A DNA stretch of 64,000 bases from Mitsuokella multacida DSM 20544 (lineage in GTDB: Bacteria > Bacillota > Negativicutes > Selenomonadales > Selenomonadaceae), in assembly GCF_000155955.1 (NCBI RefSeq), contig NZ_GG697141.2, positions 1-64,000 of the forward strand. The letters are read 5' to 3'. Shown here one piece after another: positions 365 to 896 of this stretch. The notes below the pieces were generated by a model, which saw only the letters and a list, made by a program, of their open reading frames with translations, did no database searches and was not told where the DNA came from. How positions within the stretch are numbered: the stretch's first letter is position 1; the number at the start of each line of letters is the position of its first letter. Made by a program: the position numbers and the translations under genes.

Positions 365-823
365 TTACTGGCGGTTGCGGCGTGCCAGCACGCGCAGGAC
401 CTTGGCACCCGTGTTGTGAATCTTGCGCAGCGGAGCAACGCGCGTCTTGACCTTGGGGCGGATGTCCTTGGCGGAACCGAAGTCGCCGCGCTTCAAGAGC
501 GTGGTCTTCGTCTTGTCCGGTTTGAAGAAATCGCGCATCTCCTTGGCGATGTGCTCTGGCTCGGCGTTTTCCTGGCAGAGGAAGATGTCGATAGCGACGT
601 ACTTGAGCTTGGTGTAGACGTGCAGGACCATGTGTCCCTCGCGGAAGAGCATCATGATGGCGTAGTGCTCATCCGTCAGGTGCTCGGAGCACTCGGAGAT
701 CTTTGTCAGCGTGAAATGTTCAGGCAGTTCTGCTATATAGTCTTTGATCTGGTCGATATCCTTGAGTTTGCTGTTCTTGCAGTTGAAGAGATCGACGGTG
801 AGATGACGTGCTAAGATTTTCAT
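365..823 (-). CDS. speD: S-adenosylmethionine decarboxylase-like protein lacking the pyruvoyl serine
   Basis: The 152-residue protein aligns by eye with the short prokaryotic AdoMetDC family (SpeD/SpeH), which makes decarboxylated SAM for spermidine synthesis after self-cleavage at an internal serine that becomes the pyruvoyl cofactor. The cleavage region reads REGHMVLHVY, where the family has ESH followed by a conserved His. The residue at the cleavage site (63) is Gly, codon GGA at 635-637 on the minus strand. The other two catalytic residues are present at the expected places: His68 and Cys83 (AIDIFLC). After the usual end of the family (about residue 120) there is a basic tail of some 30 residues. 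The gene has its own promoter and a GAAGGAG ribosome site, so it looks expressed. Without Ser63 classical processing should be impossible, so decarboxylase activity is doubtful. No spermidine synthase is nearby. Confidence 0.8.
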   Translation of the reverse strand: MKILARHLTVDLFNCKNSKLKDIDQIKDYIAELPEHFTLTKISECSEHLTDEHYAIMMLFREGHMVLHVYTKLKYVAIDIFLCQENAEPEHIAKEMRDFFKPDKTKTTLLKRGDFGSAKDIRPKVKTRVAPLRKIHNTGAKVLRVLARRNRQ

Positions 824-866
824 GAATTCGTTACTCCTTCATGCATTTTTTATGATTCCATGTTCC

Positions 867-896
867 ATTATAGTAGATGGGATTCGGTTCCGTCAA
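867..896 (-). promoter_or_regulatory. Sigma-A-type promoter of the speD-like gene
   Basis: On the minus strand a TTGACG -35 (891-896) and a perfect TATAAT -10 (867-872) are separated by 18 nt, about 40 nt ahead of the start codon. The -35 box lies inside the last codons of lgt, so the gene can be transcribed independently of lgt. Confidence 0.75.

Follow-up and report, generated by a model that had tools for sequence, protein, structure and literature searches.

The window analysed here is a stretch of 64,000 nucleotides (positions 1 to 64,000 of contig NZ_GG697141.2 of Mitsuokella multacida DSM 20544, assembly GCF_000155955.1). Near its start lies a gene for a relative of the AdoMet decarboxylase (AdoMetDC) SpeD that carries a basic C-terminal extension, which we call the tailed form. 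The gene and the elements around it are as follows:

297 to 341, strand not assigned: hairpin separating the SpeD-like gene from the 5S rRNA gene (seen in the sequence; partial stem computed)
365 to 823, minus strand: tailed SpeD-like gene, 152 amino acids, ATG start and TAA stop (Pfam AdoMet_dc, 79.1 bits)
368 to 514, minus strand: basic C-terminal arm, residues 104-152 (KTKTTLLKRGDFG..DIRPKVKTRVAPLRKIHNTGAKVLRVLARR)
515 to 823, minus strand: AdoMetDC-fold core, residues 1-103 (AlphaFold2 and alignment to 1vr7)
635 to 637, minus strand: codon GGA for Gly63, at the pyruvoyl-forming Ser position (aligned to Ser63 of 1tlu)
834 to 839, minus strand: ribosome-binding site AAGGAG, seen in the sequence
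867 to 896, minus strand: sigma-70-like promoter TTGACG-18-TATAAT (11 of 12 matches)

The 5S rRNA gene, at 113-229 of the window, lies beyond the hairpin from the SpeD-like gene, and the hairpin is probably a two-way terminator. An earlier note on this DNA had rated the promoter and ribosome site as good, which the matches bear out; together with the hairpin before the 5S rRNA gene, they make the SpeD-like gene look like a single, expressed unit. Further along the window, a T-box leader was found at 1863-2080 (Rfam RF00230, 55.4 bits, E 1e-10, the gathering score of 93 not being reached), with a large gene directly downstream that, judged by its translation, is probably ileS.

The 152-residue protein matches the Pfam AdoMet_dc family over residues 7-113 (E 3.9e-22, with a cut-off of 25 bits), and scores 69.3 bits, under the cut-off of 75.65, with the NCBIfam SpeD equivalog TIGR03330. 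The residue aligned to Ser63 of 1tlu is a glycine, as the earlier note had reported, and His68 and Cys83, which it had described as kept, are both found, together with His64. At positions 49 and 72, which we take to be SAM contacts in the T. maritima AdoMetDC structure, the protein has Leu and Lys, and the contact residues are not kept. The claim that the protein cannot mature in the usual way also holds on the sequence: Ser63 is absent, there is no known route to the pyruvoyl group, and the Gly63 protein would be expected to remain unprocessed. The tail is indeed basic, but it is longer than the 30 or so residues first proposed, since residues 104-152, with 16 K/R, 2 D/E and a computed pI of 12.0, reach about 38 residues beyond the end of the known fold.

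We used AlphaFold2 on the tailed-form profile A1 to model the protein, obtaining a mean pLDDT of 85.8, with most of the core at 90-97 and the first ten residues at 83. The modelled core aligns with T. maritima AdoMetDC (1vr7) over 117 residues, with a VIA-align Z of 15.7 and an rmsd of 2.1 Å. Human AdoMetDC gives a further match, between its latter half, where there is no cleavage site (PMC10407285), and residues 1-133. At moderate confidence (pLDDT 57-77), the arm model has a short helix, one strand and, at the C-terminus, an amphipathic helix with a moment of 0.5-0.7. Searched against Pfam, the arm gave no match, and its own profile hit other proteins of 26 genomes at chance level only. A PDB match of the arm to 'PLZ2.3' (9szu; E 1.4e-4, 17 positions, no stretch passing alone) was taken as chance.

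A short SpeD relative is present in nearly all of the 60 relatives searched, and profile A1 matches 357 of 380 Negativicutes genomes; among good-quality genomes of the class, 228 of 234 (97%) carry the tailed gene. A sample of Bacillota from outside Negativicutes yielded nothing but ordinary short SpeDs, and there the match stops near model position 113-126, the exceptions being a few matches that extend past this point by reading through a stop codon. The same tail is common to homologues with Gly63 across Negativicutes, a possibility that the earlier note had raised. Sequencing error, which it had allowed as a cause of Gly63, is refuted by the independent genome of M. jalaludinii, where the protein is 99% identical and also has Gly63, and by the occurrence of Gly63 in 128 different sequences. 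Phage origin of the tailed protein was considered and rejected, the matches to phage SpeD being only weak. Separately, the record MT839461.1 ('Bacteriophage sp.', unannotated, 4.3 kb, human faeces) holds at 1078-1470 a relative whose match extends into the arm, as far as residue 134; the record is possibly a bacterial fragment.

Relatives' loci were gathered with a narrower alignment (A2), giving a set biased to Selenomonadaceae. No operon partner conserved across Negativicutes was seen. The tailed gene adjoins lgt in many Selenomonadaceae; outside the family to which the window belongs, many relatives have it near ctsR-mcsB-clpC. An rRNA operon is often no more than about 6 kb away. Examples of the rRNA or ctsR-mcsB-clpC neighbourhood are the window itself (113-229) and loci L203, L204, L206, L207, L209, L210, L227, L230, L231 and L237. 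In draft assemblies the gene is often near a contig end.

Over 171 different sequences, position 63 is Gly in 128, Ser in 29, Ala in 5, Cys in 4 and Thr in 2, with His, Phe and Val in 1 each. In other words, Negativicutes have conserved an AdoMetDC-fold protein whose pyruvoyl-forming residue is absent in most of the class. Comparison of the Gly forms with the ESH forms shows that other positions have drifted along with the loss of Ser63: entropy at residue 62 is 2.14 bits in Gly forms against 0 in ESH forms, at position 49 it is 2.95 against 0.87 bits, and at position 72 it is 2.74 against 0.64 bits, the ESH forms having Phe at 49 in 21 of 25 and Glu at 72 in 22 of 25. This joint drift of Glu62 and positions 49 and 72 counts against the suggestion that the protein represents a new solution for the cofactor, and so does the variety of residues at position 63 in other lineages. 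In the Gly forms Asp79 is invariant, His64 is nearly so, and Cys83 and His68 are kept in 112 and 120 of 128, respectively, whereas Cys83 has become Phe in 15 of the 18 tailed forms without Gly63 and without the ESH motif. Since a freely decaying site would have no need of Cys83 and His68, their retention in most Gly forms makes a ligand or some residual chemistry possible.

Where Ser63 persists, it is mostly in a single set of tailed relatives. In a tree built by a quick method from few columns (62-64 excluded), with ordinary SpeDs as outgroup and with low resolution, the ESH tailed set falls outside a 63-row clade (SH-aLRT 100) that holds most other tailed forms. Within this clade the early branches have Gly, and one later group has Ala, Cys, Ser or Thr; the tree as a whole needs at least 9 changes between Ser and not-Ser at position 63, including separate Gly forms within the ESH set. 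We infer that Ser63 was ancestral and was lost repeatedly, on one deep branch and in several later independent events.

The tailed protein is under strong purifying selection, which is strongest in the arm. Over 126 pairs, which are not mutually independent but nearly all agree in direction, the median dN/dS is 0.07; dN is lower in the arm (0.019) than in the core (0.056). The arm (104-149) is also the better conserved part by entropy, at 1.66 bits compared with 2.28 for the core. Across 95 rows D11, R112 and P123 do not vary and T108 hardly does; in the 171 sequences, Gly, Ser and other forms alike keep T108, R112 and P123 invariant or almost so. The most conserved residues of the arm are those of its RGDFG..DMKP loop, not those of the helix.

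Another way to view the function of the tailed protein is through the polyamine genes that accompany it. The second, normal speD and the speE that the earlier note had proposed looking for are both in the genome. The second SpeD is a long form of 279 aa, class 1a-like and different from the tailed protein, which keeps the Ser in KSHVTVHTYPE and is clustered with an Orn/Lys/Arg decarboxylase (ODC/LDC-type), SpeE, agmatinase, a saccharopine-dehydrogenase-like CASDH and NspC. Given this complete and separate polyamine operon with a normal SpeD and SpeE, the tailed copy is not needed for AdoMet decarboxylation. We note that one cluster unites the AdoMet-dependent (speD, speE) and carboxyspermidine (CASDH, NspC) routes (L062 682-6000; G000:C6:767027-768136). 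Elsewhere in the class, 18 near-complete genomes (at least 94% completeness) have the tailed protein without any other SpeD. Seven of these are Selenomonadaceae (G005, G011, G012, G015, G017, G026 and G033), and in the 11 from other families the tailed protein is the sole PF02675 match. G005, G012, G015 and G026 are also without SpeE and without NspC above the cut-off. G011, G017 and G033 have a SpeE-family protein and NspC, yet no normal AdoMetDC to supply aminopropyl. As for expression, the V. parvula 'AdoMetDC' Vpar_0438 drops 18-fold on coaggregation (PMC6529473); we did not accept this as data on the tailed family, Vpar_0438 being probably the long SpeD by its gene number and map positions.

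The reading that we favour, and hold to be on balance probable, is of a class-wide pseudoenzyme: an AdoMetDC-fold scaffold unable to mature, with a basic arm that probably binds RNA or another polyanion. Of the three readings that the earlier note had offered, its 'regulatory or structural paralogue' fits best. The Mitsuokella protein would be a member of a Negativicutes-wide, stand-alone AdoMetDC-fold family with a basic C-terminal arm, which in most of the class, for want of Ser63, would neither cut itself nor form a pyruvoyl group and would persist as a single-chain AdoMetDC-fold domain. The core would form a homodimer, like other short SpeDs, and act as a scaffold; the arm (loop, short strand and amphipathic basic helix) would bind a polyanion, with RNA or the ribosome as the likeliest partner, because the arm's charge and constraint fit such binding. 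The role would be a housekeeping one, independent of spermidine synthesis. A bolder version, which we put forward as speculative and rather unlikely, has the protein binding RNA or ribosomes as a class-defining regulator, whose dead AdoMetDC domain may still sense SAM or polyamines and so link polyamine or methionine state to translation. Were this true, the protein would provide the first bacterial example of a stand-alone AdoMetDC pseudoenzyme that acts outside polyamine synthesis.

If the arm instead docked the protein to the inner membrane, or to cell-wall precursors modified with polyamines (such modification being a hallmark of Negativicutes), the protein would have an envelope role. The tailed family is restricted to a class with cadaverine/putrescine peptidoglycan, which is bound by OmpM (PMC10628300), and the amphipathic last helix would suit such docking. 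However, no linkage to envelope genes is seen across the class, the greatest conservation lies in the loop and not the helix, and restriction to a class is by itself weak evidence, leaving the envelope role unlikely. We rate slightly lower, as quite unlikely, a neofunctionalised enzyme that dispenses with the pyruvoyl group and uses His64, His68 and Cys83 for another reaction, a reading that the earlier note had also offered. Retention of these three residues agrees with it, as does the existence in other bacteria of SpeD homologues with altered substrate (PMC10407285). Known substrate changes, however, retain the Ser-derived pyruvoyl, and the drift at Glu62, 49 and 72, the replacement of Cys83 by Phe in most forms with neither Gly63 nor ESH, and the variety of residues at position 63 in other lineages (Ala, Cys, Thr, Phe, Val or His) all tell against it.

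A dead paralogue could also pair with the active long SpeD and tune AdoMet decarboxylation, as activator or inhibitor, in the manner of trypanosomes, where a dead AdoMetDC paralogue activates a live one (PMC5201418); the tailed protein and the long SpeD do occur together in the window genome and most relatives. The long SpeD is, however, of a different, class 1a-like form, and the tailed protein is kept in the 18 genomes that have no other SpeD, so partnering or regulating SpeD cannot be its general function. A prozyme-like activator role is excluded in these genomes, of which G005, G012, G015 and G026 also lack SpeE and full NspC, and overall we regard it as improbable. That the gene is merely decaying, or misread, might be thought from the loss of an active-site residue, but the low dN/dS, the presence in nearly all good genomes and the same residue in independent genomes refute this, and we give it a negligible chance.

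The pseudoenzyme reading has practical consequences, in that the Pfam SAM decarboxylase match creates an annotation risk for almost all genomes of Negativicutes, among them Mitsuokella, Selenomonas, Megamonas, Anaerovibrio and others from gut and rumen, and pathway predictions that took these proteins for AdoMetDC would be wrong. With a near-universal stand-alone dead form, and Ser and Gly forms coexisting in one class, the step from enzyme to pseudoenzyme becomes directly testable. Precedents for dead AdoMetDC domains exist in the prozyme (PMC5201418) and in fusions (PMC10407285); in the literature searched we found no description of a tailed or Ser-less stand-alone bacterial SpeD, nor of a class-wide one.

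Among known systems, the class 1b prokaryotic AdoMetDC (SpeD/SpeH; T. maritima TM0655, 1tlu, 1vr7) is alike in fold over about 117 residues (Z 15.7) and has in common with the tailed protein His64, His68, Cys83 and single-domain size. The tailed protein differs from it in lacking Ser63, in the relaxation of positions 49 and 72, in its added basic arm of about 38 residues and in an identity of only about 20%. The pyruvoyl-dependent ADC/ODC enzymes derived from SpeD keep their Ser-derived pyruvoyl, whereas the Mitsuokella protein has Gly63. An AdoMetDC-like fold is also found in the N-terminal domain of human spermine synthase (3c6k, Z 11.0), reported to function in dimerisation (PMC11203672), but that domain is part of an aminopropyltransferase and has no basic arm. 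SpeD-SpeD fusions (Victivallis vadensis; PMC10407285) and eukaryotic AdoMetDC have a degraded C-terminal SpeD domain that likewise does not cleave itself, though it is joined to a live SpeD domain, whereas the tailed protein stands alone with its arm. The trypanosomatid prozyme (5tvm, 6bm7), which is reported to occur only in trypanosomatids (PMC5201418), resembles it as a catalytically dead, unprocessed AdoMetDC paralogue under selection, the loss of processing being presumed for the tailed protein. The prozyme, however, is a eukaryotic protein of class 2 with two domains and acts as the partner of a live AdoMetDC, while the tailed protein persists in many genomes without any live AdoMetDC at all.
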